A stretch of DNA of 64,000 nucleotides from assembly GCA_025056355.1 (NCBI GenBank), contig JANWWI010000002.1, positions 1 to 64,000 of the forward strand, written 5' to 3'. The notes below the pieces were generated by a model. That model saw only the letters and a list, made by a program, of their open reading frames with translations. It ran no database searches and was not told the origin of the DNA. The first letter of the stretch is position 1, and each line of letters starts with the position of its first letter. A program made the translations under genes and the position numbers. This document shows positions 21,163 through 36,887 of this stretch, one piece after another. Source of the DNA: Casimicrobiaceae bacterium. GTDB lineage: Bacteria; Pseudomonadota; Gammaproteobacteria; Burkholderiales; Casimicrobiaceae.

Positions 21163-21202
21163 GGGCCAACCGCTCGAGGCACGCGCTCAACGATGCCGCG
21201 AC

Positions 21203-22147
21203 TTATCCCCGAACCAGGTCAACCAGCCGTTCACCAAGACGCGACAAGAAGGCCTTTTGAGGCCGCTCAGCCGATTTTTGCAGCATCTTTTGCACCTGCA
21301 ACACCGACTGCGGTCGAGCCATGATGTCGAGTTTGAGGCACTCATCGACAAGCGAAAGCAACTCGGGGGAGTACTTCCCCGCCCAGAGTTTGCTCGCCGG
21401 CACGTAGTGATCCTCGCGCATGCGGCTGTCGGCCGCCTGGGGCGCAAATGCGGCAAAACAGGCAAACAGCGTCGCGCCGACGCCGTACAGATCGGTCCAG
21501 GGCCCTAACTGCTCGGGCTCCGAATCGCGGTACTGTTCCGGGGCCGCGAAGCCGGGCGTGTACATCGGCGCGATCTTGCGGCCCCGGCTAGCGAGCACTT
21601 GACGCGCGGCCCCGAAGTCAAGCAACACCGGCGAACCATCGCTACGAATAAAAACATTTGCCGGTTTGATATCGAGATGCAGCAGACGCCGTGCGTGCAC
21701 CTCGCGCAAACCGTTGAGCAGCTGCGTGAAAACGTGCCGGATCAGACTCTCCGGCAACATGCCCTGGTTACCCTGAATGTACTGCTGCAACGTGCGTCCG
21801 CGCTCATAGCGCATGACCATATAGACAGTCTCGTTCGCGCGAAAGAAGTTCAGCACGCGTACGACATTCGGGTGGTTGATGCTCGCAAGCGCCTTGCCTT
21901 CCTCGAAAAAACACTTCATGCCAAAGCGGAACGAATCGAGGTTCTCGCTTGAGCTAACCTGGACACGCGAGCCCTCGGTGCGAAGGACGAGTCCGCTCGG
22001 CAAATACTCCTTGATGGCGACGAATTGTCCGTTCTCGTCGACCGCCCGATAGACGATCGAGAATCCACCGCGGCTGATCGTACGGTCGATGCGGTAGTTA
22101 TGCAGCTTATAGCCTTGTGGCAGCGCTCGATTCGAGACGGCAGACAT
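21203..22147 (-). CDS. Hanks-type serine/threonine protein kinase
   Basis: This 314-residue protein is almost entirely kinase domain: glycine-rich loop ISRGGFSIVYRA, ATP-anchoring K46 in VAIKEYLP, catalytic loop HLDIKPANVF (with HLD in place of the usual HRD), the DFGAA metal-binding motif, and an activation segment ending TPGFAAPEQY. I see no transmembrane helix or extracellular sensor, so it is probably cytosolic. The ATG at 22147 begins the conserved N-terminus; the frame extends upstream to 22213. It is paired with the PP2C phosphatase gene. Substrates cannot be deduced. Confidence 0.9.
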   Translation of the reverse strand: MSAVSNRALPQGYKLHNYRIDRTISRGGFSIVYRAVDENGQFVAIKEYLPSGLVLRTEGSRVQVSSSENLDSFRFGMKCFFEEGKALASINHPNVVRVLNFFRANETVYMVMRYERGRTLQQYIQGNQGMLPESLIRHVFTQLLNGLREVHARRLLHLDIKPANVFIRSDGSPVLLDFGAARQVLASRGRKIAPMYTPGFAAPEQYRDSEPEQLGPWTDLYGVGATLFACFAAFAPQAADSRMREDHYVPASKLWAGKYSPELLSLVDECLKLDIMARPQSVLQVQKMLQKSAERPQKAFLSRLGERLVDLVRG

Positions 22148-22291
22148 CCGTTTGGCCAGGCAAGAGGCGAGACCCGAACTGCACGCAAGGGGAAAACGGC
22201 GCTCGGTCTGCACTGAGGAATATAGCGGCTCGTCGGACCAGACGTGCGCCAGACCCCCTCAAGCCACACGCGGTCCAACACGCGCTCACCC

Positions 22292-22318
22292 AAAAAGGGA
22301 AGGCCCCCGCCGGGGGCC
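22292..22318 (-). terminator. Rho-independent terminator after dnaK
   Basis: On the minus strand a 7-bp stem (GGCCCCC with GGGGGCC, three-base loop, 22302-22318) is followed by TTCCCTTTTT. It lies 29 bases past the dnaK stop and would separate the chaperone transcript from the kinase/phosphatase genes. The first part of the T tract is interrupted by CCC, so some read-through is possible. Confidence 0.65.
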
Positions 22319-22346
22319 CCACGCACACGAGCGTGCAGCGTTGCGT

Positions 22347-24275
22347 TTAGGCTTTGTCGTCTCGTACTTCTTTGAATTCCGCATCGACGACTTTGGCGTC
22401 GCTGCCCGCTTGTGGCCCCGCGCTCGTGCCTGAACTGCCGGTCGAGGCGTGCGCGCTCGCGTAGAGCTTTTCGCTCAACTTGTGGGCCGCTGAGGCAAGC
22501 GCCTCCGACTTCGCCTCTAGTGCCACCTTTGTGGCCGAGCTGTCCTTGAGCAGCTCGTCGGCTTCCTTGAGCGCCGCTTCGATTTGGTTCTTGTCGGCGG
22601 CGTCGAGCTTCTCGCCATGCTCCTTGAGCGTTCGACGAACACTGTGCACGAGGGCATCGAGATTGTTTCGCGCCTGGACAACTTCGAGACGCGCCTTGTC
22701 GGCAGCCTCGTGCGCTTTGGCGTCGTCGATCATGCGCTGGATCTCTTCCTCGGTGAGACCGCTGTTGGCCTTGATCGTGATTTTGTTTTCCTTACCGGTG
22801 CCTTTATCGCGTGCCGAAACGTGCAAGATGCCGTTCGCGTCGATGTCGAATTGCACCTCGATCTGCGGCACACCACGCGGCGCGGGCGGGATACCCTCGA
22901 GATTGAACTGTCCGAGACTCTTGTTGCCCGCGGCCATCTCACGTTCGCCCTGGAGCACGTGAATGGTCACCGCGGTCTGATTGTCCTCGGCCGTCGAGAA
23001 CACCTGCGACGCCCGGGTCGGAATCGTGGTGTTCTTCTTGATCAGCTTCGTCATCACCCCGCCAAGCGTTTCGATGCCGAGCGACAGCGGCGTCACGTCG
23101 AGCAAGAGCACATCCTTGCGATCCCCGGCAAGCACGGCGCCCTGAATGGCCGCGCCCAACGCGACGGCTTCGTCGGGGTTGACGTCCTTTCGCGGCTCAC
23201 GGCCAAAGAAGTTCTTGACCGCCTCGATCACTTTTGGCATGCGCGTCTGTCCGCCCACGAGAATCACATCGTCGATATCCGTGACAGACAGATTCGCATC
23301 CTTGAGCGCAATCCGGCACGGCTCGATGGTGCGCTCAATCAAATCCTCGACGAGCGACTCAAGTTTGGCGCGCGTGATCTTCATCGCCAGGTGCTTCGGT
23401 CCCGTGGCATCCATGGCGATGTAGGGCTCGTTGATCTCGGTCTGCTGGCTCGACGACAGCTCGATCTTGGCCCGTTCGGCGGCCGCTTTGACGCGTTGCA
23501 ACGCGATCGGATCGCGCGTGAGATCGATGCCGGAGCTCTTTTTGAACTCCTCGCAGATGTAGTCGATCAGGCGCTGGTCGAAGTCTTCGCCGCCCAGGAA
23601 AGTGTCGCCGTTGGTGGCCAGTACCTCAAACTGCTTTTCGCCGTCGACGTCGGCAATTTCGATGATCGAGATGTCGAACGTGCCGCCGCCGAGGTCATAC
23701 ACCGCAATCTTCGCGTCCTTTTTGATCTTGTCGAGTCCGAAGGCCAGGGCTGCGGCCGTGGGCTCATTGATGATGCGCTTGACCTCCAAACCGGCGATCC
23801 GCCCTGCATCCTTAGTAGCCTGACGCTGGCTATCGTTGAAGTACGCGGGCACCGTAATGACCGCCTCGGTCACCTCATGGCCGAGGTAGTCTTCGGCGGT
23901 CTTTTTCATCTTGCGCAGAACCTCAGCCGACACCGCCGGAGGAGCGATTTTCCTGCCCCGGACCTCGACCCAGGCATCGCCGTTGTCGGCGCGCACGATC
24001 TTGTAGGGCATCAGGCCAATGCCTTTTTGCACCTCTTTCTCGTCAAAACGACGACCAATTAGCCGCTTGACGGCGTAGAGCGTGTTTTTCGGATTCGTGA
24101 CCGCTTGGCGCTTGGCGGGCGCGCCAACGAGAATTTCGCCGTCGTCCATGTAGGCAACAATCGACGGTGTCGTGCGCGCGCCTTCGCTGTTTTCGATCAC
24201 CTTGGGCTGACCGCCCTCGACGATCGCCACGCAGCTATTGGTCGTTCCCAGATCGATGCCGATGATCTTTTTCAT
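22347..24275 (-). CDS. dnaK: Chaperone protein DnaK (Hsp70)
   Basis: This 642-residue ATP-dependent chaperone has the nucleotide-binding domain ([55 protein letters not shown]), the interdomain linker region with [17 protein letters not shown], the substrate-binding domain and a helical lid. It ends in a glycine/serine-rich tail and [12 protein letters not shown]. The start at 24275 has an AAGGA-type ribosome-binding site. It follows grpE by 212 bases, with its own heat-shock-like promoter in the gap. dnaJ does not follow; a terminator and a kinase gene do. Confidence 0.98.
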
Positions 24276-24331
24276 AATGCCTATCCTTGTTCCGATATCC
24301 CGGTTTGGCGCCGGCGTTTCCCTGAGTCCCG

Positions 24332-24359
24332 ATGTGGCGACGTTTTGCCCGCCTTCAAG
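24332..24359 (-). promoter_or_regulatory. Candidate sigma-32 heat-shock promoter for dnaK
   Basis: On the minus strand CTTGAA (24359-24354) is separated by 14 bases from CGCCACAT (24339-24332). This is close to the sigma-32 consensus CTTGAA, 13-15 bases, CCCCATNT. It lies about 57 bases upstream of the dnaK start. Sequence resemblance only. Confidence 0.55.
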
Positions 24360-24487
24360 GGTAAGCCAAGCGCTCAGCTGTCAGAGTGCTTGACCCCGCC
24401 TTTCAGAGTCCACGGCCGCTAAGCCTCGGCAGCCGAGGGGCGCTGTGACGGCGCCGAGCGCGCGGCCCGTCGCCGATTCGGCCGGCT

Positions 24488-25147
24488 TCACGGGGCTCCC
24501 GGTCCGGTCGGGCCGGTTGCAGCCTCCGCCGCCGGGCTGTCCGCCGGCGGATTGGAGGCCTTGGCCTTGGCCACCGAGACGAGCGCCGGCCGCAGGCAAC
24601 GCCCCGCGATCAAATACCCCTTCCGAAAGACCTCCACGACTGTACCCGGCGGCGCGTCCGATTCGACGTGGCTCAGCGCCTCATGCAGATTCGGATCGAA
24701 CTTCTCGCCACGCGCGGGTACCTCGACGATTTTGTAGCGTTCGAACGTGGTCACAAGTTGGCGAAGGGTCATCTCCGCGCCGGTCTTGATCTGCTCGATC
24801 GTTCCGAGTCGATCGTCGAGAATCCGCTCAAGCGTGTCTTTGACCGCCAGTAAATCAAAGGCGAAATCGCGCATGGCGTAGTCGCGCGCATTGGCTAGCT
24901 CCTGCGCATGCCGACGCTGCATGTTTTGCTGCTCAGCCAGCGCGCGCAGGAGTTGGTCCTTCAACGAGGCAAGCTCCGCGGTCAGTGCCGCAGAATCTGC
25001 CTCCTGCGTTGACTCGGGCGCCAGCCTCTCAGTCTCCCCATCGGCAGGTTTCTTGATTGGGTCGGCAGGACCGGCGGACAACTCGCCTGATGATTCCTGC
25101 TGCCTGGATCTCTCGTCCGGATGAGTCATGTCAGTTTCGTTCACCAT
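24488..25147 (-). CDS. grpE: Nucleotide exchange factor GrpE
   Basis: This 219-residue co-chaperone speeds ADP release from DnaK. The first 60 residues are polar and variable. A long coiled-coil helix follows ([30 protein letters not shown]), then the beta-domain with [26 protein letters not shown] and [25 protein letters not shown], the family signature. The C-terminal tail is alanine/proline-rich. Start choice: ATG 25147 has GAGG seven bases upstream, but ATG 25129 is also possible. A CTTGAA hexamer at 25192-25187 may be the -35 of a heat-shock promoter, but its -10 match is weak. hrcA is not upstream; rpsP diverges. Confidence 0.96.
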
Positions 25148-25209
25148 GTCAGGACCTCAAGGCTAGGTGGGTTGCAGCGGCTCGAATTCAAGGGCGCCGA
25201 CACCGGGCG

Positions 25210-25238
25210 ACTTTTCTCAAGCCTCATCAAGCTATACT
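25210..25238 (+). promoter_or_regulatory. Candidate sigma-70 promoter for rpsP operon
   Basis: A near-consensus -10 box TATACT lies at 25233-25238, 44 bases upstream of the rpsP start, in the grpE/rpsP divergent gap. The matching -35 region (ACTTTT near 25210-25215) is weak. This is the best promoter candidate for the ribosomal operon. Confidence 0.45.
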
Positions 25239-25281
25239 CGAGAGCTTCACGAGACAAAAGACAATTGTTTGCAAAGCACCC

Positions 25282-25542
25282 ATGGTTGTCGTCCGACTCA
25301 GCCGCGGGGGCGCCAAGGGCGCCCCGTTCTACAACATCGTCGTGGCCGATTCTCGGAACCGTCGGGATGGACGGTTTATCGAACGAATTGGCTTTTACAA
25401 CCCGGTCGCCAAAGAAGGCACCGAAGAGCTTCGGATCGCCCAGGACCGCCTCGAGTACTGGGTAAGCCAGGGCGCTCAGCTTTCGGATACGGTCGCGCGC
25501 TTGGTCAAGCGTGCAAAGGCGAACGGCACGAAGAGCGGGTGA
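25282..25542 (+). CDS. rpsP: 30S ribosomal protein bS16
   Basis: This 86-residue small-subunit protein has the bS16 signature: [41 protein letters not shown], and [18 protein letters not shown]-type C-terminal helices. Length fits the family. It is the first gene of the conserved rpsP-rimM-trmD-rplS operon. The frame is open upstream, but the ATG at 25282 is the standard N-terminus. Confidence 0.97.
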
Positions 25543-25673
25543 GCCGCCGCCGCATGAACCATCAATCGCAGCCGCGCTCGGCGGCTGCGCCGTCGCCGCG
25601 TAGGCAACACGCTGCAACCTCCGAGCGCTTCGGCTCGACACAGGGGCCGCGCACCGCTGCCGGAGAAGGCGGG

Positions 25674-26186
25674 ATGTGGACCCCCGCCGAGCCTTCTCCT
25701 CAGGAAAAATTTGTCAAACTGGGTCGACTCGGGCGCCCGCATGGCGTCTCCGGGCTTCTACGCCTCTATCCGTTCTCCGATGGGGAAACGTTGCGTCTGG
25801 CCAAGGAACTGTGGGTCGCCGGGCAACGGCTCGCGGTCGAACACATCCGTGCCGCACACGACTGCTTTCTGATTAAGTTCGGAGGCATCGACTCCCCCGA
25901 GGCAGCACGAGCCCTGACTCATCGGCACGTTGGCGTTCCCCGCGCGGCGCTGCCCCCGCTCAAGCCTGGCGAGTTTTACTGGATCGATCTGATTGGGATG
26001 CGCTGCGTGAGTGCCACGCGCGACTTTGGCCTCGTACACGAGGTCTTCGAAGCCGGTGCACAGCCGATTTTGCGCGTGCGGGCGGATTCGGGAAGCGAAG
26101 AACTGATACCCTTTGTCGACGCCATCATTCTCGAAGTCGATGTGGCAAGGCGCCAGATCCGAGTCGACTGGGCTGGAGTCGACTGA
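25674..26186 (+). CDS. rimM: Ribosome maturation factor RimM
   Basis: This 170-residue protein helps mature the 30S subunit, acting with bS19. The RimM N-terminal beta-barrel has KLGRLGRPHGVSGLLRLYPF and the C-terminal PRC-barrel has GEFYWIDLIGMRCV, then LIPFVDAIILEVDVARRQIRVDW. The ATG at 25674 gives the family length and has GAAGG upstream; an in-frame ATG at 25554 would add 40 low-complexity residues. Its last 47-74 bases overlap the only ATG starts available for trmD. The final codons contain a 15-base tandem duplication. Confidence 0.94.
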   Translation: MWTPAEPSPQEKFVKLGRLGRPHGVSGLLRLYPFSDGETLRLAKELWVAGQRLAVEHIRAAHDCFLIKFGGIDSPEAARALTHRHVGVPRAALPPLKPGEFYWIDLIGMRCVSATRDFGLVHEVFEAGAQPILRVRADSGSEELIPFVDAIILEVDVARRQIRVDWAGVD

Positions 26187-26934
26187 GGTTCCCTCCTACG
26201 CCGTTGTCGCCGTCTACCCCGAAATCGTCGACACGGCGCTAGCGGCCGGTGTGGTTGGACGGGCCCGTTCGAGCAATCGCTGGCGGTTTCAGTCGATCTC
26301 GCTTCGAACCGAGGCGGAGCGCCTCGGCGTGCGTCTCGACACCCGTCCACGCGGCGGAGGGCCCGGAATGCTGCTCAGGCCCGATGTACTCGATGCCGCC
26401 ATCGCTCGTGCAGAGCAGTGGCACGGGCGGCGCGCAAAGCGTGTCGTGTTGAGCGCCGATGGCGCGCCGCTCAAGCAAAAGACGGTCGAAACGCTCTCCC
26501 GCGAGCGAGCGCTCACCATCATCGCCGGTCGCTACGAAGGATTCGACGACCATTGGCTCAGGCATTGCGGCGCGGAACTCGTTTCAATTGGCGACTTCGT
26601 GCTCTCCGGCGGCGAGCTTGCGGCGGCGGTCTTGCTCGACGCGATCGTCCGGATTCTCCCCGGCGTGCTTGGGGATGCGGAATCAGCTGAGCTCGACTCC
26701 TTTTCGACCGGGTTGCTCGACTACCCGAACTTCGCGAGCGAGGGGGCAGAGCAGGCCGCCACAGCCTTGGAGCGGTTCTCTGGCAACCACTCGGCGATCG
26801 CCAGGTGGCGGCGCCTCCAGGCGCTCCTTCGCACGCTCGAGCGCCGACCCGACGTACTTGCGCAAGCCCGCCTGACAGCCGCAGATCGATGCGCCTTACG
26901 CGCTGCACTCGCGCGAGGCTCCGACTCGGTTTAG
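26140..26934 (+). CDS. trmD: tRNA (guanine-37-N1)-methyltransferase
   Basis: This SPOUT-fold enzyme methylates N1 of G37 in tRNAs reading CNN codons, preventing frameshifts. The trefoil-knot S-adenosylmethionine motifs are clear: GRYEGFDD, SIGDFVLSGGELAA and RILPGVLGDAES, followed by the catalytic aspartate in LDSFSTGLLDYP and FSGNHSAIARWRR. The N-terminal part is divergent: DTRPRGGGPGM stands where family members usually have DDRPYGGGPGM. Starts available are ATG 26140 (264 residues) and ATG 26113, both inside rimM. No start codon lies where the family N-terminus normally begins. Confidence 0.93.
   Translation: MWQGARSESTGLESTEVPSYAVVAVYPEIVDTALAAGVVGRARSSNRWRFQSISLRTEAERLGVRLDTRPRGGGPGMLLRPDVLDAAIARAEQWHGRRAKRVVLSADGAPLKQKTVETLSRERALTIIAGRYEGFDDHWLRHCGAELVSIGDFVLSGGELAAAVLLDAIVRILPGVLGDAESAELDSFSTGLLDYPNFASEGAEQAATALERFSGNHSAIARWRRLQALLRTLERRPDVLAQARLTAADRCALRAALARGSDSV
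26161..26190. repeat. 15-bp tandem direct repeat at the rimM/trmD junction
   Basis: GAGTCGACTG occurs at 26161-26170 and again at 26176-26185, a period of 15 bases, so a five-codon duplication lies in both overlapping frames. The rimM stop codon falls within the second copy. It may have lengthened the TrmD N-terminus or displaced its original start. Confidence 0.6.
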
Positions 26935-27141
26935 AATTTAGGCCTTTTCCACGCGCGAATGTGGGATGCAAGCAATCAAGCGCCCCGGCGTGTGGGGCCG
27001 CCGTTTGTCAGCATTCGTCAGCGTTTGCCAGCGACGCCGGCGGGTTGTGTAGCGGTGGCAAAGCGCCTCCGTCCGCAAGTTCCCCCGAGCCGCCACCCAC
27101 CGCTTGCGCCGAAGTCCTCCAAACAGCCTCCAGTCGCAACT

Positions 27142-27510
27142 ATGAATCCGATCATCGCCGAGCTCGAACGAGAAGAGATCGCCCGCCTAGGTAAAACCAT
27201 TCCAGACTTCGGACCGGGCGACACGGTCGTCGTCAACGTCAACGTGGTCGAAGGCGACAAGAAACGAGTGCAGGCCTTCGAGGGCATCGTCATCGCGAAG
27301 CGCAACCGCGGGCTCAACAGCTCGTTCGTGGTGCGCAAGATTTCAAGTGGCGAGGGCGTCGAGCGAACGTTCCAGACCTATTCGCCCGCAATCGCGTCGA
27401 TCATCGTCAAGCGAAAAGGCGACGTTCGACGCGCCAAGCTCTACTATTTGCGTGAACGCTCCGGAAAGTCGGCGCGCATCCGCGAAAAGCTCAACGCCGC
27501 GACCGAGTAA
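27142..27510 (+). CDS. rplS: 50S ribosomal protein bL19
   Basis: This 122-residue large-subunit protein sits at the subunit interface. The N-terminus [20 protein letters not shown], the central [41 protein letters not shown]-type barrel and the C-terminal [21 protein letters not shown] are all typical. The frame is open further upstream, but the ATG at 27142 matches the family start. It follows trmD after 207 bases, longer than usual for this operon, and is followed by a strong terminator. Confidence 0.97.
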
Positions 27511-27576
27511 TCGGCAGCATTCACCGGCCTCGCCGCAGCGCCATTACGAGCAGGCGTCTTGCCTGAGCCGCCAGTT

Positions 27577-27607
27577 GCCGCCGTCTCGCGGCGGCGGGTT
27601 TGTTTTT
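27577..27607 (+). terminator. Rho-independent terminator after rplS
   Basis: A 7-bp GC stem (GCCGCCG at 27577-27583, loop TCTCG, CGGCGGC at 27589-27595) is followed by GGGTTTGTTTTT. It lies 67 bases past the rplS stop and should end the rpsP-rimM-trmD-rplS transcript. Confidence 0.8.
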
Positions 27608-27742
27608 GCCCGTACTTGGCCTGTGGTCCGCGGCTCAGCCGCGTCTCTGAAGCGCGTTTTGGCCGTCGCATCTCGACCCGGTCCACTGGCTCAAGCAACA
27701 GGGGGCGAACGATTCTGATGCGGCTCGCTTACATTCGCGCTT

Positions 27743-29530
27743 ATGCGCACGAGTCTCTACGATGCTTTGGGCGTGAGCCCCGGCGACTCAACGGCTGCGA
27801 TCCGCCGTGCGCTGCGAGCGCTTCTTCGGCGATTTTGGTCACTGCCACGCGATGCGGCGGGCGATGTTGAGGAAGCGCTTCGCTTTGTCTCGCTTGCCTC
27901 GGCAATCCTAACCGAGGATCGACGCCGCGACTATTACGACGCACAACTCTCCCCCAGTCTCGGCGGCAGTACGTGGCGGCTGGCCACGATCAGCCCCCCG
28001 AAACCTCTCGGCCATGAACGAAGCAGCGCCCAAGGCGAGGGCTTTTGGTCGCTGCCTCATTCCTCGGTTGAGGTGCAAACAACCAAGAAACTGCCGAGCG
28101 TGGAAACCCTGGCCGAACACTTCCCCGACCACCGAAAGCAACCGCTCGGGTGGCTCGGCTTGTTGGCTCTCCTTGCCGTAGTGCTCGCTGGCCTTGCGGC
28201 CTCTCGATTGACAACCGTGATGCCGGGCGGGAATGCACCGTTTTGGAGCGTGGTTGTGCTTCTCGTTGCGCTTGCCGCGCTCGGCGGCGCCTGGATCGCA
28301 AAACCCTTGAAGCTGCGCGACTTGCGGTCAAACCTCTCCGATCTTGCGGTCACCAAGTGGCGTCGCGATGCCTCGGTGTTTGTTGGATTACCGCCCCCCG
28401 AACAGGATCCGGCATGGCTGTTTCGGCTGCGCGTGGCCGAACTGACGCGCAGTAACAACGGCTACCTTGCGCTTGCCGTGCCCGGGCGCCGAATGCTCGC
28501 ACGTGCTTTTGACTACAGCCTCCTCGGGCTTGCGCTGCTCGGCATCCTGGCCCTCGTTGACGAACTTGCCCCGACTGGGCCCGTGGCGACCCTGACCGCC
28601 TGGTTGCGCTCACCGCTTCTCTTGCCTTCGGTCGTCGTCGTCTTAGGGATTCCGCTTGAAGCATGGTTCACAGCCCGGTTTCGGACGACCCCCGGCAAAC
28701 GATTGCTTGGGCTTGTGGTCGTCTCGGGCGTCACGCACGTCGGTGCGCGAACGCATTCGGTCGCGCTCGCCTCGGCTCGAAGACGTGCTCGCGAGGTTGC
28801 TCTGCGCGGTCTCGCCCTGGGTTTTCTGCCGCTGACGCTTGTGTGTGTGTGGCGCTTTTGGCGCACGCTTGAAGACGACGAACCCTCCTGGGATGCCCTA
28901 TCCGACACGGTCGTGCTGGTTCGTTCCTCAGCTTGGCTGCCGGCTGCGAGCGCGCTGTTGACCCTTGCTGCAACCAGTGCAATGGTGCTGAGCGCCTGGA
29001 TCCGTTCGTTCGAAGCCGTTTCGCTGCCGACGCTTCAAGCGCATTGGTTTACGACCTCCGTGTCAGAAGAAGAGGTTCGCCCGGCCACGACGTCGATGCC
29101 CGGCGAGCCAAGCGCAGCCGCCTCGAAAACACGCGCGGCCACGGAGCCGCAGCCCCCCGACCAAGACGAAACCGCGGCGAAGGCATCGCCCGCCCGGCAA
29201 GCAAGCGGTGCGAAACGCGAGCCGGCGGCCGATCCTGTCCTCGCGCAGGTTGCGCGCGCCCAAAGTCGCCGCGAGCGCATCGAGCTCGCCCAAGCCGCAT
29301 TTGCCGCAGCGCTGCGCGGTGAGCGAGACCTCAGCATGCTTGAATCGATCTGTCGTCGTTGGACGCAAGATCAGCCCGGCAGTGCCGAGGCGTGGCGCTG
29401 CTATGGCCTCGCACAGTACCGAAACGGCGCCGGCACCGCGGCCCTGCCCGCCCTTCGCAACGCGCTTCGTCTCGGCGCCCGCGACCCTGAGCTCGAACGC
29501 GCGATCCTCGATATCCTGCGCCCGCAATGA
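27743..29530 (+). CDS. Membrane protein with degenerate J-domain, RDD domain and TPR-like tail
   Basis: This 595-residue protein starts like a DnaJ J-domain (LYDALGVSPGDSTAAIRRAL, then LASAILTEDRRRDYYDAQL, residues 5-68), but the essential HPD tripeptide is missing: the loop reads RFWSLPRDAAGD. Two hydrophobic helices follow near 133-187. Next is an RDD domain with ARAFDYSLLGLALLG near 250 and FRTTPGKRLLGLVVV near 320, plus further helices near 355 and 400. The last 100 residues look like a tetratricopeptide-type helical region (AQAAFAAALRGERDLSML, AWRCYGLAQYRNGAGTAAL). It cannot be expected to stimulate DnaK in the usual way. The function is unknown; localisation should be the inner membrane. 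Confidence 0.8.
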   Translation: MRTSLYDALGVSPGDSTAAIRRALRALLRRFWSLPRDAAGDVEEALRFVSLASAILTEDRRRDYYDAQLSPSLGGSTWRLATISPPKPLGHERSSAQGEGFWSLPHSSVEVQTTKKLPSVETLAEHFPDHRKQPLGWLGLLALLAVVLAGLAASRLTTVMPGGNAPFWSVVVLLVALAALGGAWIAKPLKLRDLRSNLSDLAVTKWRRDASVFVGLPPPEQDPAWLFRLRVAELTRSNNGYLALAVPGRRMLARAFDYSLLGLALLGILALVDELAPTGPVATLTAWLRSPLLLPSVVVVLGIPLEAWFTARFRTTPGKRLLGLVVVSGVTHVGARTHSVALASARRRAREVALRGLALGFLPLTLVCVWRFWRTLEDDEPSWDALSDTVVLVRSSAWLPAASALLTLAATSAMVLSAWIRSFEAVSLPTLQAHWFTTSVSEEEVRPATTSMPGEPSAAASKTRAATEPQPPDQDETAAKASPARQASGAKREPAADPVLAQVARAQSRRERIELAQAAFAAALRGERDLSMLESICRRWTQDQPGSAEAWRCYGLAQYRNGAGTAALPALRNALRLGARDPELERAILDILRPQ

Positions 29531-29552
29531 AAGAGGCGCTCCAGTGCAACGC

Positions 29553-29570
29553 AGCCCTCGCCCGAGGGCT
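29553..29570. repeat. Small hairpin between convergent genes
   Basis: AGCCCTC and GAGGGCT form a 7-bp stem with a four-base loop, between the ends of the J/RDD gene and the convergent tusA-like gene. It has no T tract on either strand, so it is at most a weak or Rho-assisted terminator. Confidence 0.4.
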
Positions 29571-29579
29571 CGGCGGCGC

Positions 29580-29813
29580 TTACTTGCGCTGCAACAGATA
29601 GGTGTAGGTCGAGCCTGCCTGCGACGACTCGAGTAGCGCGTTCCCGGTCTGCCGCGCAAAAGCTTCGAAATCGCGAACGCTTGCGGGATCGGTTGCCAGA
29701 ACGCGCAACACCTCGCCCGACTTCATCTCGCTCAACGCCTTCTTGGCACGAAGAATCGGGAGCGGGCAGTTCAAACCGCGAGCGTCGACTTCCTTGGCAA
29801 CTTCGATCTTCAC
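29580..29813 (-). CDS. TusA-family sulfur carrier protein
   Basis: This 77-residue protein has the TusA fold and its CPxP motif: C16 in ARGLNCPLPILRAKKAL carries the persulfide in family members. The C-terminal half (VLATDPASVRDFEAFARQTGN) is also typical. TusA-like proteins pass sulfur to tRNA thiolation, molybdenum cofactor synthesis or sulfur oxidation; the neighbours do not settle which. It starts with GTG. Subfamily assignment (true TusA versus YeeD-like or others) cannot be made from length alone. Confidence 0.9.
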   Translation of the reverse strand: MKIEVAKEVDARGLNCPLPILRAKKALSEMKSGEVLRVLATDPASVRDFEAFARQTGNALLESSQAGSTYTYLLQRK

Positions 29814-29910
29814 GCGAGTTCCCTGACTCCGTTTAGCTGAATGACGAAGGGAAACGGCCTGCGAGTATATCGCCCAGCGACCGCTCCGTCTCGACGCGCC
29901 AGTCGTTCAG

Positions 29911-30495
29911 CTAGTCGAGATACTCAAATAGCGTCACGACTCGCCGGACCCCGGCTGTGCTCGCCGCCACTTCCGAGGCCGCCGCTGCTTCAGCGCGGCT
30001 GACCAGTCCCATCAAGAAAACGGTTCCGGCCTCGGTCACCACTTTGACGTGATTGGCCTGAAACCGGCCATCGGCCAAGAAGCGTGTCTTGATGAGCGCG
30101 GTCAGGCGTGCATCGTTGGCAACCGACCGCAACGATGCAAGCGGCCCCACCACGAGCTCGTTGTGCAGACGCACGATGTTCGGCGCAACCGCCCGCAGTT
30201 CCGCCTCAACCGCTTCCTTGACCGCTTGCGAAATGGCTTCGCCGCTTAGCAGCACGTGCCGATTGAAGCTCGTGACGTTCACATGCGCCTGATCGCCGAA
30301 ACGGTTCTTGATACGAAACAGCGCGCGGGTTTCGATGGTTTGATCGTCGAGCATCGTGCCCGGCGTGCGCCGGTCTTCGGCCACGGCCACCGCGGTGAGC
30401 GCACCGCCCACCACAAGGGCCGCACAACCGCTCAGAGCGATCCCCATCACGGCAAGCACGACCCAAACGAGCAATCTTGGTTGCAGCGGTCTCAC
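29911..30495 (-). CDS. Outer-membrane BON-domain lipoprotein (DolP/OsmY-like)
   Basis: This 194-residue lipoprotein has an N-terminal hydrophobic segment ending in a lipobox, LSGC with C24 as the lipidated residue. Two BON domains follow, near residues 50-115 (IETRALFRIKNRFGDQAHVN) and 120-190 (LTALIKTRFLADGRFQANHV). This is the layout of DolP (YraP), which maintains outer-membrane integrity. Its neighbour yraN supports the analogy, since yraN and dolP are close together in E. coli too. The start is GTG. Confidence 0.88.
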   Translation of the reverse strand: MRPLQPRLLVWVVLAVMGIALSGCAALVVGGALTAVAVAEDRRTPGTMLDDQTIETRALFRIKNRFGDQAHVNVTSFNRHVLLSGEAISQAVKEAVEAELRAVAPNIVRLHNELVVGPLASLRSVANDARLTALIKTRFLADGRFQANHVKVVTEAGTVFLMGLVSRAEAAAASEVAASTAGVRRVVTLFEYLD

Positions 30496-30573
30496 ACACT
30501 CATCCTTTCGGCACTCGGCTGTTGGATTATTGCCGCCCTGACCGACTAGTGGCTTCGACCCGTGCGAGGCAAC

Positions 30574-30963
30574 TCAGTTCGCGACCAGTTCGAAGGCGGC
30601 CTCGATCCATTCGTAACGACCGCTGCCCGCGCCGCGTACGACCACGTCGAAGCGGCACGGCGGAATATCGGAGTAGCCCGACAGATAGAGCTGCGCCGCG
30701 CGACTCAAGCGCCTTTGCTTCGCCCGATCGATGCTTGCCGCGGCCCCGCCGAAGCGGTCGTCCGAACGGTGCCGGACTTCGATAAACACGACGGTGTCAC
30801 CATCGCGAGCGATCAGGTCGATCTCGCCGAAGCGGCAACGCCAGTTACGCTCGAGCAACCTCCAGCCGCGCGCGCTGACGAGCCGGGCCACCTCCTCCTC
30901 CGCCGCTGCACCGAGTTGCCCCGCCCGTTGTGCCACTGCTTGACTTCGAATCGCATCGCGCAC
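30574..30963 (-). CDS. UPF0102 endonuclease-like protein YraN
   Basis: This protein has the YraN/UPF0102 fold, related to Holliday-junction resolvase-like nucleases. Motifs visible are GAAAEEEVARLVSARGWRLLERNWRCRFGEIDLIARD and VVFIEVRHRSDDRFG, containing the E..D..ExK-type acidic positions (the final position is R here, EVR). The role is unproven in any organism that I can cite with confidence. With the GTG at 30963 it has 129 residues, the family length; the frame extends to a GTG at 31071 with an arginine-rich stretch. It diverges from rsmI, a conserved neighbour pair. Confidence 0.85.
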   Translation of the reverse strand: MRDAIRSQAVAQRAGQLGAAAEEEVARLVSARGWRLLERNWRCRFGEIDLIARDGDTVVFIEVRHRSDDRFGGAAASIDRAKQRRLSRAAQLYLSGYSDIPPCRFDVVVRGAGSGRYEWIEAAFELVAN

Positions 30964-31089
30964 GGTACGAATCGCGTGGGCTGGACGCGAATGCTTCCGG
31001 TCACTGACCCGAAGCAAGCGACGGCTCGATTGCCCGCGGCGGCGCCTTTGTCGAGTAGAGCCCCGCCACACGCCTACACTTTCAGGCCC

Positions 31090-32016
31090 ATGCCCCGCCG
31101 AGCACTTTCCGCTGCCGAGCCTCCCACGCTGCCCGTCTTGGCTCCGGGATTGTATGTGGTGGCCACGCCGATCGGAAACCTCGGCGACATCACGCTGAGG
31201 GCGCTTGAGACGCTAGAGAGCGTTCACGCGATCGCCTGTGAAGACACGCGGGTGACCGCAAGGCTGCTTCGCGCGCTGGGGCTACCGAGCGTCGAGCTCA
31301 TCTCGGTCCGCGAACACAACGAACGCGTCGCGGCTCGACACATCGTCGAGCGCATCGCGCGCGCTCAAGCCATCGCCTACCTGACCGACGCGGGCACCCC
31401 AGGCGTAAGCGATCCCGGCGCGGAACTTGTGCGCGCAGTGCGCGGCGCAGGTTTGCCTGTGGTACCGCTGCCGGGTCCCTCCGCGCTCACGGCTGCCCTG
31501 GCTGTCGCAGGGCTTGCAGATCCGACCTTTACGTTTTACGGCTTCGCCCCACGCAGCCCCTCGGCGCTTGCGAATTTCGTACGCGAGATCGTGGGCCGAC
31601 GTGAGGCGTCGGTTTTTTTCGAGGCGCCGCACCGGCTGGCCACCACCCTCGATGCGCTTGCGCAAGCGCTGGCGGACGGACACCGTGAGCGCACGCTCTT
31701 CATCGGACGTGAACTCACCAAACACTTTGAGCAAACCTTGTGCCTGCACGCTGGCGAACTGCGCGACTGGCGCCGCCACTTGCCCGAACCGATTCGCGGC
31801 GAATGCGTACTGGTGCTCGCCGGCAATCGCGAAGCGGCAGAAGCGTCAGCCCCACACGACGAGCAGCTCGAGCGGCTTCTTGGAGCCCTCCTCGAGGAAT
31901 TGCCGCCGAGTCGTGCGGCGCGCGTGGCCGCCCGTGCGACCGGCGCGCCGCGCGAACGCCTCTATGCGCTCGCCGAGGCCTTGCGCACACGACCCTTACG
32001 TTCGCGGAAAGCTTGA
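31090..32016 (+). CDS. rsmI: 16S rRNA (cytidine-1402-2'-O)-methyltransferase
   Basis: This 308-residue tetrapyrrole-methylase-fold enzyme methylates the ribose of C1402 in the decoding centre of 16S rRNA. The signature runs from GLYVVATPIGNLGDITLRALETL to ACEDTRVTARLL, then AYLTDAGTPGVSDPGAELV, VVPLPGPSALTAALAVAGL and FYGFAPRSP. The C-terminal helix bundle is present (LPPSRAARVAARATGAPRERLYALA). ATG at 31090 gives the normal N-terminus; the open frame extends far upstream without family similarity. Confidence 0.96.
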   Translation: MPRRALSAAEPPTLPVLAPGLYVVATPIGNLGDITLRALETLESVHAIACEDTRVTARLLRALGLPSVELISVREHNERVAARHIVERIARAQAIAYLTDAGTPGVSDPGAELVRAVRGAGLPVVPLPGPSALTAALAVAGLADPTFTFYGFAPRSPSALANFVREIVGRREASVFFEAPHRLATTLDALAQALADGHRERTLFIGRELTKHFEQTLCLHAGELRDWRRHLPEPIRGECVLVLAGNREAAEASAPHDEQLERLLGALLEELPPSRAARVAARATGAPRERLYALAEALRTRPLRSRKA

Positions 32017-32045
32017 GCGCCCGGTGCGCGCGAACGACCGCGAGG

Positions 32046-32070
32046 CGCGCTGGTGCAAGCAACCAGCGCG
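32046..32070. repeat. Inverted repeat between rsmI and mlaF
   Basis: CGCGCTGGT and ACCAGCGCG form perfect 9-bp arms around a 7-base loop, 30 bases past the rsmI stop. No T tract follows on the plus strand. It could be a Rho-assisted end for rsmI or an operator for the Mla operon; a possible -10 hexamer TACAAT follows at 32077-32082. Confidence 0.5.
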
Positions 32071-32181
32071 GCTCGATACAATCGGAGCTTGGTCCTCGGG
32101 TCCGTCCGTAGGTCCGTCTTTTTCGACCCCTCTTTCTTGCGAGAGTCTGCGCGAAAGGAGTTTGCCCGACGCGCGCCGTCC

Positions 32182-32997
32182 ATGACCGCCTTCGTCGAGT
32201 TGGCCGAGGTGAGCTTCGGCTATGAGCCTTCGCGCCCCGTTCTGTCAGGCATTTCGCTGACCGTGCCTCGCGGCAAACTGGTCGCGGTGATGGGCGGCTC
32301 CGGCTGCGGCAAGACAACCGTCCTGCGGCTCATCTGCGGTCAATATCGTCCGGACCGCGGCAGGGTGCTTGTCAACGGTGAGTCCGTGGCCGACATGTCG
32401 CGCGAGGCCCTTCGAGCCCACCGGCGTCGCCTCGGCATGCTGTTTCAGTTCGGAGCGCTGTTCACCGACATGAGCGTGTTCGACAACGTGGCCTTCCCGC
32501 TGCGTGAGCACACGAGGCTGCCCGAGCCCGTGATCCGCGACATCGTGCTCATGAAGCTCAACGCCGTGGGGCTGCGGGGCACCGCGCAGATGCGTCCGGC
32601 CGAGCTCTCCGGCGGCATGGCTCGGCGTGTCGCGCTCGCGCGCTCGATCGCGCTCGACCCGGAGCTTGTGCTTTACGACGAGCCCTTCGCCGGACTCGAT
32701 CCGATTTCGCTCTCGGTGGTCGGACAACTCATCCGCAAGTTGAACGACGCACTGGGCATGACCTCGATTCTGGTCACGCACGATATCGTTGAGTCGCTCA
32801 AGATCGTCGATTACCTCTACTTCATCTCCGAGGGCCGCGTTGTGGCCGAAGGAACGCCGGAAGCAATCCGCGCTTCAACCGATCCGTTTGTGCGGCAGTT
32901 CGTCGATGGTGAAATCGATGGGCCGGTGCGCTTTCATTATCCCGCCCCGGCGCTCGAGACGCAGTTCTCAGTGCCTTCGCTCGGAGCGCCCGCCTGA
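32182..32997 (+). CDS. mlaF: Phospholipid transport ABC ATPase MlaF
   Basis: This 271-residue ATPase powers the Mla system, which moves phospholipids between inner and outer membranes. Walker A is [13 protein letters not shown], the signature [17 protein letters not shown], Walker [14 protein letters not shown], and the switch histidine lies in VTHDIVES. It is the first gene of mlaF-E-D-A-C-B. Its stop overlaps the mlaE start (TGATG). The start ATG 32182 matches the family; the frame extends upstream to 32053. Confidence 0.96.
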
Positions 32998-33797
32998 TGC
33001 CGTTGGCCACCCTCGCCCACGCCGCTGAGCGGCTCGGCGCCGCCTCCCGCCGAGCGATCGGCCGTCTCGGCTTTGCCGCGCGTTTTCTGGCTGCCATCCT
33101 AGCCCACAGCGCAACAGCACTCAAACGGCCTCGCCTGGTGATCCGGGAAATTTACTTCGGCGGCGTGCTCTCGCTCGTGATCGTTGGCGTGAGCGGAACC
33201 TTCATCGGGATGGTGCTCGCGCTTCAGGGCTATGAGACGCTTGTGCGCTTCGGCGCAAGCGAATCGATGGGCGTGCTGGTCGCCCTTTCGCTCGTGCGCG
33301 AGCTTGGACCCGTGGTCACCGGGCTGCTGTTTGCCAGCCGGGCCGGGTCAGCCATGACGGCCGAGATCGGGCTCATGAAAACCACCGAGCAACTCGCGGC
33401 CATGGAAGTGATGGCCGTCGATCCCCTCGCGCGCGTGGTCGCGCCGCGCTTCTGGGCCGGGGTGATCTCGATGCCGTTGCTTGCCGCGATCTTCTCGACC
33501 CTGGGTATCTACGGCGGTTACGTCGTCGCAGTGCCTCTGCTCGGCATCGATGCGGGCGCTTTCTGGAGCCAGATGCAGGCCGCTGTGGACTGGCGCTACG
33601 ATGTGCTCAATGGCGTCATCAAGAGCATCGTGTTTGCCGTGGCGGTCTCCCTCATCGCGGTGTTCGAGGGCTACGACTGCAAGCCGACCGCCGAAGGCGT
33701 CTCCGCGGCCACGACCCGAACGGTCGTGACCTCGGCCATCGTGATCCTTGCGCTTGACTTTGTGCTCACCGTGTTCATGTTTCGCGGAGGTGCCTGA
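32997..33797 (+). CDS. mlaE: Phospholipid transport ABC permease MlaE
   Basis: This 266-residue inner-membrane protein is the permease of the MlaFEDB complex. The MlaE/YrbE signature is visible: [57 protein letters not shown], followed by [26 protein letters not shown]. There are about five to six membrane helices, with the last near the C-terminus ([16 protein letters not shown]). It overlaps mlaF by one base and precedes mlaD by two. Confidence 0.96.
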
Positions 33798-33799
33798 TC

Positions 33800-34303
33800 G
33801 TGAGCCAACGCAGCATCGACCTCTGGGTCGGACTCTTCGTCGCGATGGGGCTCGCGGCGCTACTGTTTCTGGCCCTCAAAGTCGGCAATTTGCTCAAGTT
33901 CAACGACGAGGCACGGGGCTACCTCATCGAAGCACGCTTTGACAACATCGGCAACCTCAAAGTGCGCGCGCCAGTGCGAAGCGCCGGCGTGGTCGTCGGC
34001 CGCGTCGAATCGATCAGTCTCGACGACAAGACCTTCGAGGCCGTCGTGCGACTACGCATCGACCACCGCTACCAGTTCTCACGCGATACGATCGCGGCGA
34101 TCTACACTTCGGGGCTGCTCGGCGAGCAATTCGTCGGGCTCGAACCGGGCGGCGACCCGGCCGTGCTCAAAGACGGCGAGCGCTTACGCAAGACGCAGTC
34201 GGCCATGCAACTCGAAAAGCTCGTCTCGCAGTTCCTGTTCAACAAAGCGCAGGAGGGTCCTTCCGCGGCAGCAACAGCACCTGCCGCAGGAGCCAAACCA
34301 TGA
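33800..34303 (+). CDS. mlaD: Phospholipid-binding MCE protein MlaD
   Basis: This 167-residue protein has one N-terminal membrane anchor (VGLFVAMGLAALLFLALKVG) and a single periplasmic MCE domain (YLIEARFDNIGNLKVRAPVRSAGVVVGRVESI). It forms a hexameric ring on MlaE that passes lipid to or from MlaC. The C-terminal helix (LEKLVSQFLFNK), which lines the central pore in the family, is present, followed by an alanine/proline-rich tail. Start GTG. The stop shares ATGA with the mlaA start. Confidence 0.95.
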   Translation: MSQRSIDLWVGLFVAMGLAALLFLALKVGNLLKFNDEARGYLIEARFDNIGNLKVRAPVRSAGVVVGRVESISLDDKTFEAVVRLRIDHRYQFSRDTIAAIYTSGLLGEQFVGLEPGGDPAVLKDGERLRKTQSAMQLEKLVSQFLFNKAQEGPSAAATAPAAGAKP

Positions 34304-34992
34304 GCCGTTTGCCCCTGATCGCCGCAGCGGCCGGCGCACTCCTGCTTGCCGGTTGCGCGTCGTTTCGCGCCGCTTCGCCGGGCGATCCGCTTGAGCCGAT
34401 CAACCGCGGGCTTTACTCCTTCAACGCAACCTTCGATCACTATCTGTTCCGGCCAATCGCACGGGCCTATGACCACGTGACGCCAACCCCCGTCAAACAA
34501 GGCGTCGCAAACGTGTTTCAAAACATGGCCGATGCGCAGTCGGCGATCAACAGCGCGCTCCAAGGCAAGGGGAAAAAAGCCGGAGATGACCTCGGTCGCG
34601 TCCTGATCAACACCACCTTCGGCCTTGGCGGAATCTTCGACCACGCAAGCGCCCTGGGTCTCGAACGCGGCAATGAGGACTTCGGGCAAACCCTCGGTCA
34701 CTGGGGCCTCGGCCCCGGTCCGTACCTCGTCTTGCCCTTCCTGGGTCCCACGACGCTCCGCGACCTCGGCGGACGCCTTGTCGATGGACCGCTTGATCCG
34801 CTTGGCTACCTGTCTCCCGTTTCGGCACGCAATGCGTTACAGGGCTTGCGCTTCGTCGATGCCCGCGTGCAGCTCTTCCCGTTCGATCAGCTGCTTGCCC
34901 AGGCTGCGCTGGACAAGTACACCTTCACGCGATCGGCGTATCTACAACGTCGCCAGAGTCTCGTGCTCGACGGGCGACGCGTTTCGGAGTAA
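34300..34992 (+). CDS. mlaA: Outer-membrane lipid-asymmetry lipoprotein MlaA (VacJ)
   Basis: This 230-residue lipoprotein removes phospholipids from the outer leaflet of the outer membrane. The signal peptide ends in a lipobox, LLAGC. The family signature is GDPLEPINRGLYSFNATFDHYLFRPIARAYDHVTP, then LINTTFGLGGIFDHASALGLERGNEDFGQTLGHWG and GPYLVLPFLGPTTLRD. Having mlaA within the mlaFEDCB operon is typical of betaproteobacteria; in E. coli it is elsewhere. Confidence 0.96.
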   Translation: MSRLPLIAAAAGALLLAGCASFRAASPGDPLEPINRGLYSFNATFDHYLFRPIARAYDHVTPTPVKQGVANVFQNMADAQSAINSALQGKGKKAGDDLGRVLINTTFGLGGIFDHASALGLERGNEDFGQTLGHWGLGPGPYLVLPFLGPTTLRDLGGRLVDGPLDPLGYLSPVSARNALQGLRFVDARVQLFPFDQLLAQAALDKYTFTRSAYLQRRQSLVLDGRRVSE

Positions 34993-35002
34993 GGCCGTTC
35001 AG

Positions 35003-35617
35003 ATGTTTGCCCTCAGGTTTGGTCTCGTGCGTCCGCTGGTGATCGCCGCAGCCGTGCTCGCCACCGCACTCTCGGTTGCGATGCCCATGGCCCCGGATGA
35101 GCAGGTGCGACGCGTCTCGAGCGAAGTGACCGCAATCCTGCGCGCCGATCCGGGCATTCTCAACAACCCGGCCAAGTTGCGCGAATTGATCGAAAGCAAG
35201 CTGCTGCCCCACTTCAACTTCACCCGCATGACGCAGCTGGCCATGGGCCGCAATTGGGCGCGCGCCACGCCCGAGCAGCAAGCCACGCTCACGCGTGAAT
35301 TTCAAACGCTGCTCGTGCGCACTTACTCGGGGGCGCTTGCCAACTTTCGCAATCAGCAAATCGAGGTTCGACCGGTCCGCGTTTCACCGAACGAAACCGA
35401 AGTCACGGTGCGTACGCTCGTGCTCCAGCCAAACGGCCAGTCGATCCCGATTGACTATGCACTGGAACGCCAGCCGGACGGCCGCTGGCAGGCCTATGAT
35501 GTGACCGTGGGCGGCGTCAGCCTCGTCACCAACTACCGTGAGGAATTCAACACCGTCGTGCGAGACCAAGGGGTCGAGGCCCTGATCCGGCAACTTCAGC
35601 AGCGAAATCGCGGCTGA
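35003..35617 (+). CDS. mlaC: Periplasmic phospholipid carrier MlaC
   Basis: This 204-residue protein starts with a signal peptide (residues 1-27) and carries a Ttg2D/MlaC fold: LLPHFNFTRMTQLAMGRNWARATPEQQATLTREFQTLLVRTYSGAL and the C-terminal DGRWQAYDVTVGGVSLVTNYREEFNTVV. It shuttles phospholipid across the periplasm between MlaA and MlaFEDB. It starts 10 bases after mlaA and is 24 bases before the STAS gene. Confidence 0.95.
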   Translation: MFALRFGLVRPLVIAAAVLATALSVAMPMAPDEQVRRVSSEVTAILRADPGILNNPAKLRELIESKLLPHFNFTRMTQLAMGRNWARATPEQQATLTREFQTLLVRTYSGALANFRNQQIEVRPVRVSPNETEVTVRTLVLQPNGQSIPIDYALERQPDGRWQAYDVTVGGVSLVTNYREEFNTVVRDQGVEALIRQLQQRNRG

Positions 35618-35641
35618 CTGCGGCTCAAGGCACACACCGCC

Positions 35642-35899
35642 ATGTCGATTCGACTCGAGGGTCCGCTCACGGTCGACACGGTGCCCGAACTTTGGGCGCG
35701 TCTGGCCGGCGATCCAAACGCTCCGTCATCAAGCCACAGCGCCCCGTTCATCGACGCCTCAGCCGTCACCGAGATCGATTCCGCGGGGCTAGCGTTTCTG
35801 ACGGCACTGGCGCGCGTTCGTCGTGCACGGCTAATGTGCGTCCCGGAGAAAGCCCGCGCGCTTGCACGCACCTACGGTGTCCAGGCGCTGCTTCCCTAA
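35642..35899 (+). CDS. mlaB: STAS-domain protein MlaB
   Basis: This 85-residue protein is a single STAS domain: an N-terminal strand (LEGPLTVDTVPELWARL), then FIDASAVTEIDSAGLAFLTALARVRRARL, including the D-S-A-G motif near residue 46. In the Mla complex the STAS subunit binds the MlaF ATPase and is needed for its activity. The position right after mlaC supports the name. Confidence 0.9.
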   Translation: MSIRLEGPLTVDTVPELWARLAGDPNAPSSSHSAPFIDASAVTEIDSAGLAFLTALARVRRARLMCVPEKARALARTYGVQALLP

Positions 35900-35963
35900 A
35901 ATCCGTTCAATCGTTCAACCCAGCCGCCAGAGCTGAGGGCGGCATCGCGTCCCAACCGCTTCT

Positions 35964-36887
35964 ATGAGCTGCCTACCCGCGCTCGCGTTTGAGCGGGTGA
36001 GCAAGCGCTTCGGTTCCCTGGCTGCGCTCGACCAGGTCAGTTTTTCCGTCGAGCAGGGCGAATTTTTTGCCTTGCTCGGCCCGAACGGCGCCGGTAAAAC
36101 CACGCTCATCTCAATCCTGGCAGGGCTCGTGCGGCCGAGCAGCGGCCGGGCTTTCGTGCTTGGCTGGGACGTCGTGCGCGAACCGCTCGAAGCGCGGGCC
36201 CGACTCGGCGTGGTGCCGCAGGAGCTCGTCTTTGATCCGTTTTTTACGGTGCGCGAAACGCTCGAACTGCAAGCGCGTTACTACGGCTTGCGCCCCTCGC
36301 GTGCGTGGATCGAGGAGCTGCTCGCCGAGCTCGGGCTCGAAGCCAAAGCCGACACGAATCTGCGTGCGCTCTCAGGCGGGCAAAAGCGCCGGGTCATGGT
36401 CGGACAGGCCCTTGTGCACAAGCCGCCCGTGATCGTGCTCGATGAGCCGACCGCCGGGGTCGATGTCGAGCTGCGCCAGGGGTTGTGGCGCTTTATCAAG
36501 CGGCTCAACGCCGAAGGGCATACGATCGTGCTGACCACCCACTACCTCGAAGAGGCCGAGTCACTGTGCACGCGCGTCGCGATGCTCAAGGCAGGCCGCG
36601 TGGTTGCCCTGGATGCCACCGAGCGACTGCTCAGGAACCTCGGCGGCATTCAGGTCGAAGTCGTGGCCGAGCGCGTGCCGGAATCGCTTGCCGGGCGGGC
36701 GATCGCGCAGGCCTCGGGAGCATTCGGCTTTACCTTGCCTGAGCCGGCCGCGCTCGAGCCGCTGCTCGCGGCATTTCGCGAAGCGGGCATCGCCGTGCGC
36801 GAACTGCGCGTCGGCGGGGCCGATCTAGAAACTGCCTTTTTGCGCCTGACCGGGCGCCACGCAACCCCGCACGCCCATGCCGCTTGA
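35964..36887 (+). CDS. ABC-2 type exporter ATPase (YadG-like)
   Basis: This 307-residue ATPase has Walker A GPNGAGKTTLISI, signature ALSGGQKRRVMVGQAL, Walker B PPVIVLDEPTAGVD and the H-loop TTHYLEEAES. The last 80 residues form the accessory domain typical of the CcmA/DrrA/YadG group. With the next gene it forms a complete exporter. In betaproteobacteria this pair conservedly follows the mla genes, so it may act on the envelope, but the substrate is unknown. Confidence 0.92.
   Translation: MSCLPALAFERVSKRFGSLAALDQVSFSVEQGEFFALLGPNGAGKTTLISILAGLVRPSSGRAFVLGWDVVREPLEARARLGVVPQELVFDPFFTVRETLELQARYYGLRPSRAWIEELLAELGLEAKADTNLRALSGGQKRRVMVGQALVHKPPVIVLDEPTAGVDVELRQGLWRFIKRLNAEGHTIVLTTHYLEEAESLCTRVAMLKAGRVVALDATERLLRNLGGIQVEVVAERVPESLAGRAIAQASGAFGFTLPEPAALEPLLAAFREAGIAVRELRVGGADLETAFLRLTGRHATPHAHAA

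Follow-up and report, generated by a model that had tools for sequence, protein, structure and literature searches.

A gene in the genome of a Casimicrobiaceae bacterium encodes a membrane protein in which a J-like domain lacking the HPD tripeptide is joined, in one open reading frame, to an RDD module and a C-terminal TPR domain. Membrane J-like proteins without HPD are already known; this order of domains, and the bacterial protein family that carries it, are new. The gene lies on the forward (+) strand of the window, as we call the whole 64,000-nucleotide stretch that was analysed, with its ATG at 27743 and its stop codon ending at 29530, and encodes 595 residues: the J-like domain, two transmembrane (TM) helices, a conserved loop, the RDD module, a further TM helix and the TPR domain (all features described are on this strand unless stated). 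An initial annotation had proposed J-like, RDD and helical-repeat parts within a single frame, and Pfam, profile searches and structure prediction together bore this out. On balance we think it probable, if by no great measure, that the protein is a membrane-spanning scaffold of the inner membrane whose J fold does not activate Hsp70 and serves as the docking site of a dedicated cytoplasmic partner.

The J-like domain and its replaced HPD

The J-like domain occupies residues 1–70 (27743–27952). Pfam DnaJ matched residues 5–66, covering the whole domain, with 20.5 bits against a cut-off of 27.8. The same model passed the cut-off in homologues, with 44.4 bits in L022 and 39.3 bits in each of two proteins from another family of the same order (f27); the sub-threshold score is a property of the window member, not of the whole set. 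Within alignment A1 (24 proteins), Pfam at E 0.01 recognized DnaJ in 19 and RDD in 22. The NCBIfam matches all fell far short of cut-off; the models concerned were of DnaJ type, TopJ, MamA, type III chaperone and PgaA.

Foldseek and VIA searches with the full-length model (mean pLDDT 76.8) gave mostly TPR matches, and the J domain was therefore folded and searched alone (residues 1–75, 48-row alignment). The resulting model (mean pLDDT 88.7) contained helices at residues 5–9, 17–32, 41–56 and 59–69, and its ten best Foldseek matches were all J domains by title, the best with E 4.9e-3 and probability 1.00 and none with E under 0.001. VIA-align superposed the model on the J domain of CbpA (Z 10.1, rmsd 2.1, 67 aligned) and on 5nro_B, a DnaK-bound J domain (Z 8.7, rmsd 1.7, 61 aligned); because Z scores of such size can, by the tool's own warning, arise for unrelated small helical folds, the match of the family sequence profile to solved J domains (best 8.6e-7) matters here. 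Structure prediction, which the initial annotation had named as a possible refutation of its J-domain outline, did give a J fold at the N-terminus. The four helices of that fold are present and HPD is absent between helices II and III, which places the domain in the J-like class, defined as a J fold without HPD (as quoted in PMC3196505).

In a gapless alignment with the DnaJ of the same genome, whose HPD is intact, the tripeptide falls on W32-S33-L34 (27836–27844). The replacement that had been noticed in this one protein proved general: HPD occurred in none of 51 distinct homologues, all of which have letters at those columns. The position was filled by YAK in 26 of them, by WAV in nine, by WSV in five, by YKK, YTK and HRG in two each, and once each by WSL, WAA, YLN, WVS and YAG. 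Both HRG proteins are those of f27, and the histidine they retain suggests descent from a normal J domain. P35-R36-D37 was considered as a shifted HPD and was ruled out by the gapless alignment of the loop to the genome's own DnaJ.

Equivalent residues of E. coli DnaJ were assigned manually, using the alignment of the protein with the DnaJ of this genome. The positions that we take to be those of Y25, H33, P34, D35, R36 and N37 are all changed in the window protein, and the invariant R25 and R47 presumably occupy those of K26 and K48. Also invariant in the family are R29 and F48, and R36, D37 and G40 are nearly so. In the window protein another sequence, conserved throughout the family, stands in place of the HPDRN core; this argues for some partner other than DnaK.

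A Pam16-like protein would nevertheless engage the chaperone system, its J-like domain binding DnaK or the J domain of DnaJ without ATPase stimulation and in this way recruiting or restraining the chaperone. The invariance of two basic finger residues, R25 and R47, is in keeping with such an adaptor, and Tim16 has been cited as an interaction partner and inhibitor of Tim14 (PMC3196505). The conserved replacement of the HPDRN core speaks against it, however, and for a J-like pair of trypanosomes the authors argue that its action does not depend on mHsp70 (PMC11349236). Together with the genomic evidence given below, we regard a DnaK adaptor as unlikely.

Constraint on the coding sequence was estimated as dN/dS (Nei–Gojobori, own script) for nine regions over 210 pairs from 21 related loci. 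Residues 21–56 (27803–27910), the helix II–loop–helix III finger, were chosen as the Hsp70-facing part of J domains (PMC7289447). The finger had the lowest median of the nine regions, 0.019 (188/210 pairs usable), a comparison among the regions of this protein, and the finger of a true DnaJ would also be conserved. The other medians were 0.089 for the loop at residues 200–246, 0.100 for the entire J-like domain, 0.153 for the last TM helix, 0.206 for RDD, 0.300 for TPR and 0.311 for the first two TM helices, and the two linkers gave 0.54 and 0.87; all these values are rough, since divergence at synonymous sites is high (in the J domain, mean pS was 0.55 and 0.71). Among 15 members of the window's own genus the contrast was smaller than across the 21 loci, with 0.115 for the finger (57/105 pairs usable) and 0.163 for the whole J domain (68/105 pairs).

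The loss of HPD from 51 of 51 homologues, and a window member scoring under the Pfam DnaJ cut-off, might also be expected if the protein were an ordinary RDD membrane protein with a J domain in decay. With the finger the most constrained region scored, and the gene present in 60/64 genomes of its family, we consider decay highly improbable. Judged by these ratios, the segment that replaced HPD is not decaying, and the finger is under very strong purifying selection for its new sequence. A set of proteins in which the former Hsp70-binding finger is the most constrained part offers a clean system for asking what a J fold binds after Hsp70.

Membrane topology, RDD module and TPR domain

Hydropathy peaked at residues 135–153, 167–185, 258–276 (with a shoulder at 263–281), 292–310, 352–370 and 402–420 (with a weaker peak at 390–408). 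From hydropathy and the helices of the model, TM helix 1 was placed at residues 135–159 (28145–28219), TM helix 2 at 165–185 (28235–28297) and the last TM helix at 398–420 (28934–29002); TM 3 (247–275) and TM 4 (293–313) lie inside the RDD module (28481–28921). Residues 200–246 (28340–28480), between TM helix 2 and the RDD module, form a family-specific and probably cytoplasmic loop with the pattern WRR..SVF.G..P..D..W.F.LR..EL.R; its conservation was 0.79 at residues 206–236, its constraint was about that of the whole J-like domain (0.089 versus 0.100), and it had no Pfam match. By inspection, the loop and TM helices 1 and 2 are absent from both f27 homologues.

The RDD module spans residues 247–393. 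Pfam RDD (PF06271) matched residues 245–332 with 32.8 bits, above its gathering cut-off of 24.1, which makes the protein a member of that family; of the two f27 proteins, L084 scored above the cut-off (25.1) and L085 just below it (23.2). Beyond TM 4 the model contained a broken helix pair, residues 338–356 and 362–378 (28754–28876), flanked by strands 324–328 and 389–393, the only model strands of at least three residues. To judge from the DSSP string, these strands probably pair. Such pairing would make the segment 338–378 a hairpin that does not cross the membrane, leaving five crossings and the N and C termini on opposite sides, and we read the helix pair as probably a re-entrant hairpin of RDD. 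It is also possible, however, to read residues 352–370 as a full crossing, for which their mean hydropathy of 1.88 is sufficient and which would put the TPR domain in the cytoplasm; the third helix of SppI, another RDD protein, was likewise inconclusive in predictions (PMC7568657).

Within the RDD module R254, D257, R348 and D388 were invariant and D384 nearly so. In the Halobacillus RDD protein D154, D158, R124 and R129 are reported to be indispensable for antiport, and R35 and D42 are not (PMC5996927). The protein could therefore be a regulated cation transporter, its RDD module acting as a Na+(Li+,K+)/H+ antiporter as in Halobacillus and its J-like and TPR domains regulating it. D384 and D388 have the spacing of D154 and D158 and R348 is invariant, as this reading would have it, but R348 does not stand at the same distance from the aspartates as R124 or R129, and whether it is the counterpart of either is uncertain. 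The module is, moreover, less constrained than the J finger (0.206 versus 0.019), and SppI of B. subtilis, in which all six conserved residues are said to be present, is a protease inhibitor (PMC7568657). A transporter seems to us quite unlikely.

After the last TM helix, a variable linker (residues 421–497, 29003–29233; conservation 0.28, mostly low pLDDT, dN/dS 0.87) leads to the TPR domain at residues 498–595 (29234–29527). Pfam gave weak TPR matches to the window member within residues 504–586 (17.2 bits, cut-off 35), and TPR_2 scored above cut-off in the homologue L022. The A1 profile matched TPR structures, and VIA aligned the domain with 4am9_A (Z 12.0, rmsd 2.5, 89 aligned), where the tool advises a Z of 13 for repeats. 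The assignment of the window member to TPR comes from profile and fold, with no Pfam TPR model above cut-off.

Two cysteines, Cys537 (29351–29353) and Cys553 (29399–29401), lie 16 residues apart in this domain, and both were present in 49/49 homologues with letters there (2/51 were gapped). They sit one each in adjoining model helices, 530–543 and 548–560, at about equal distance from the turn. The invariant pair fits a predicted periplasmic disulfide and, with the re-entrant RDD helix of the model, indicates that the TPR domain is probably periplasmic.

As a scaffold, which we prefer, the protein would have its J-like domain and 200–246 loop in the cytoplasm, where a single dedicated partner would dock on them and the DnaK ATPase would not be stimulated. 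Anchorage would come from the RDD helices, which may also have a sensing or conducting role, and the TPR domain, closed by its disulfide, would bind a periplasmic or envelope protein, so that a cytoplasmic partner would be coupled to a periplasmic one. CJD1, ARC6/ZipN and Pam16, compared below, are precedents in principle for such a use of the J fold. The earlier suggestion of a membrane adaptor or scaffold is partly supported, in that such a role fits the architecture found. We advance more tentatively the further proposal that the J fold has become a permanently Hsp70-independent docking module, with a fixed cytoplasmic partner bound to the J finger and the 200–246 loop, a possibly ion-sensing RDD module and a disulfide-closed periplasmic TPR domain; if this were true, the lineage would have in this protein an envelope device of its own, for signalling or for assembly, retained even in genomes of about 2 Mb. 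It also joins a poorly understood module, RDD, to domains that are probably on both sides of the membrane.

Distribution and gene neighbourhood

Matches were found in 60 of the 64 genomes of the bacterium's own family, in all seven of its genera, and the gene is therefore more than a chance open reading frame. One of the 60 matched by its TPR part alone (G587) and a few others in pieces; of the four genomes without a match, two are at least 94% complete (G610 and G617). All 11 genomes of genus g6 carry the gene, those at least 90% complete measuring 1.8–2.4 Mb; two g6 assemblies of 1.3 Mb are only 73–76% complete. Among 300 genomes of the order, proteins matching J, RDD and TPR were confined to the own family and to f27 (two genomes), and no further such protein was found in 274 genomes of the class (E 1e-8) or 398 of the phylum (E 1e-12), searches which, like that of the order, scored few candidates per genome and may have missed some. 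The set comprises at least 49 distinct proteins from apparently one family of bacteria and two more from another. A single-sequence search of contigs returned no homologous locus; an alignment-based search returned 44 loci in a named collection, most with records labelled Burkholderiales or Betaproteobacteria, a few with Proteobacteria alone or with species names that seem misassigned, and one (L058) with Casimicrobiaceae, which is probably the family concerned.

Genes of the window were placed in the related loci by tblastn. In 41/44 loci the gene follows rplS on the same strand, at a projected distance of 138–388 bases in 40 of them and of about 1.1 kb in L061. Of the remaining three, L077 is genuinely different, and the other two are on contigs that begin about 200 bases or less from the gene; the neighbourhood also differs in G021 and in f27. 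A terminator-like stem-loop at 27575–27597, found by consensus scan only, separates rplS from the gene in the window; it hints at a separate transcript and makes co-transcription with rplS doubtful. Over 27400–29950 the consensus scan for terminators found seven sites, compared with 3.0 (sd 1.7) in shuffled sequence, and that for promoters found no promoter-like site. Rfam detected no RNA element within 22000–36000. A role in anti-phage defence was also considered and set aside, PADLOC giving no match in the two members scanned.

The initial annotation had pointed to a nearby dnaK locus from which dnaJ is missing. Locally this is correct, but a full, HPD-bearing DnaJ is encoded on another contig of the genome (G000:C82). 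The dnaJ and dnaK genes are separated in all four members of the genus that were examined (G000, G005, G009 and G016), and the two are adjacent in G017, G021 and G049. Of the related loci, 27 extend 6.4 kb or more upstream of the gene, and one of these (L034) has grpE and dnaK there; the functional hint drawn from the dnaK neighbourhood fails; we reject the link as a local arrangement. Upstream dnaK, limited to the window and L034, thus gives the DnaK adaptor no general support, although the genome yielded three DnaJ-profile matches, namely DnaJ, a probable HscB encoded next to an HSP70 gene, and the J-like/RDD/TPR protein itself, which would suit such an adaptor.

Two other gene groups in the window may be recorded. 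Genes for a protein kinase (128 bits to Pfam Pkinase) and for a PP2C phosphatase adjoin dnaK-grpE at 20233–22213 on the reverse (−) strand, an order found also in L034. At 32182–34992 (+), a putative Mla-type run (mlaF, mlaE, mlaD, mlaA) follows rsmI, and its order recurs in loci of the genus, e.g. L034–L037.

Comparison with known systems

The domain order had not been recognized as that of a described protein, and this holds as far as our literature searches reach: those on J-domain or DnaJ domain together with RDD found one unrelated insect paper, and those on degenerate J-domains in bacteria found nothing, with subscription journals largely outside their scope. Combinations of J or RDD with a solenoid tail recur in varied forms in other lineages. 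J-Sel1 membrane proteins occur in L106 and L107 and J-ankyrin membrane proteins in L087–L090, L092, L093 and L095 (by Pfam on L106 and L087, by inspection for the rest), with HPD kept in both kinds, and L105 encodes an RDD-Sel1 protein (Pfam). Like the present protein, these carry J or RDD with a helical-repeat tail; none of them joins J and RDD.

The Halobacillus RDD protein and B. subtilis SppI share the RDD module with its conserved R and D residues, but are described as short stand-alone proteins without a J-like domain or TPR. On the J side, ZipN/Ftn2 of cyanobacteria and ARC6 of chloroplasts likewise have an N-terminal J-like domain, inferred to be cytoplasmic (stromal for ARC6), with a TM helix further on (PMC6391411, PMC3196505). 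ZipN is a membrane tether of FtsZ, and its N-terminal part is needed for FtsZ binding in Synechocystis; the authors call the assignment of its N-terminal domain unclear (PMC6391411). These proteins differ in having one predicted TM helix and a length of about 800 residues in Anabaena, and the passages cited mention no RDD; the likeness, taken from published descriptions, is one of the J-like principle only.

CJD1 (chloroplast J-like domain 1) comes closer in arrangement, with an HPD-less J-like domain followed by TM helices, but it has three of these, is confined to photosynthetic organisms and, in the passages cited, is described with no mention of RDD or TPR (PMC3196505). An E. coli dnaJ/cbpA mutant was not rescued by the J-like domain of CJD1, which in yeast two-hybrid assays bound ARC6 and not Hsp70; a functional link between CJD1 and ARC6 was not supported by the double mutant (PMC3196505). 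Pam16/Tim16 and the trypanosome Pam16/Pam18 are likewise membrane-associated, HPD-less J-like proteins that act through protein contacts (PMC3196505, PMC11349236). They differ in being mitochondrial and in that Pam16 pairs with a J or J-like protein, and RDD and TPR go unmentioned in the passages cited. The HPD-less J-like membrane proteins found in the literature thus belong to organelles and, less clearly, to cyanobacteria.
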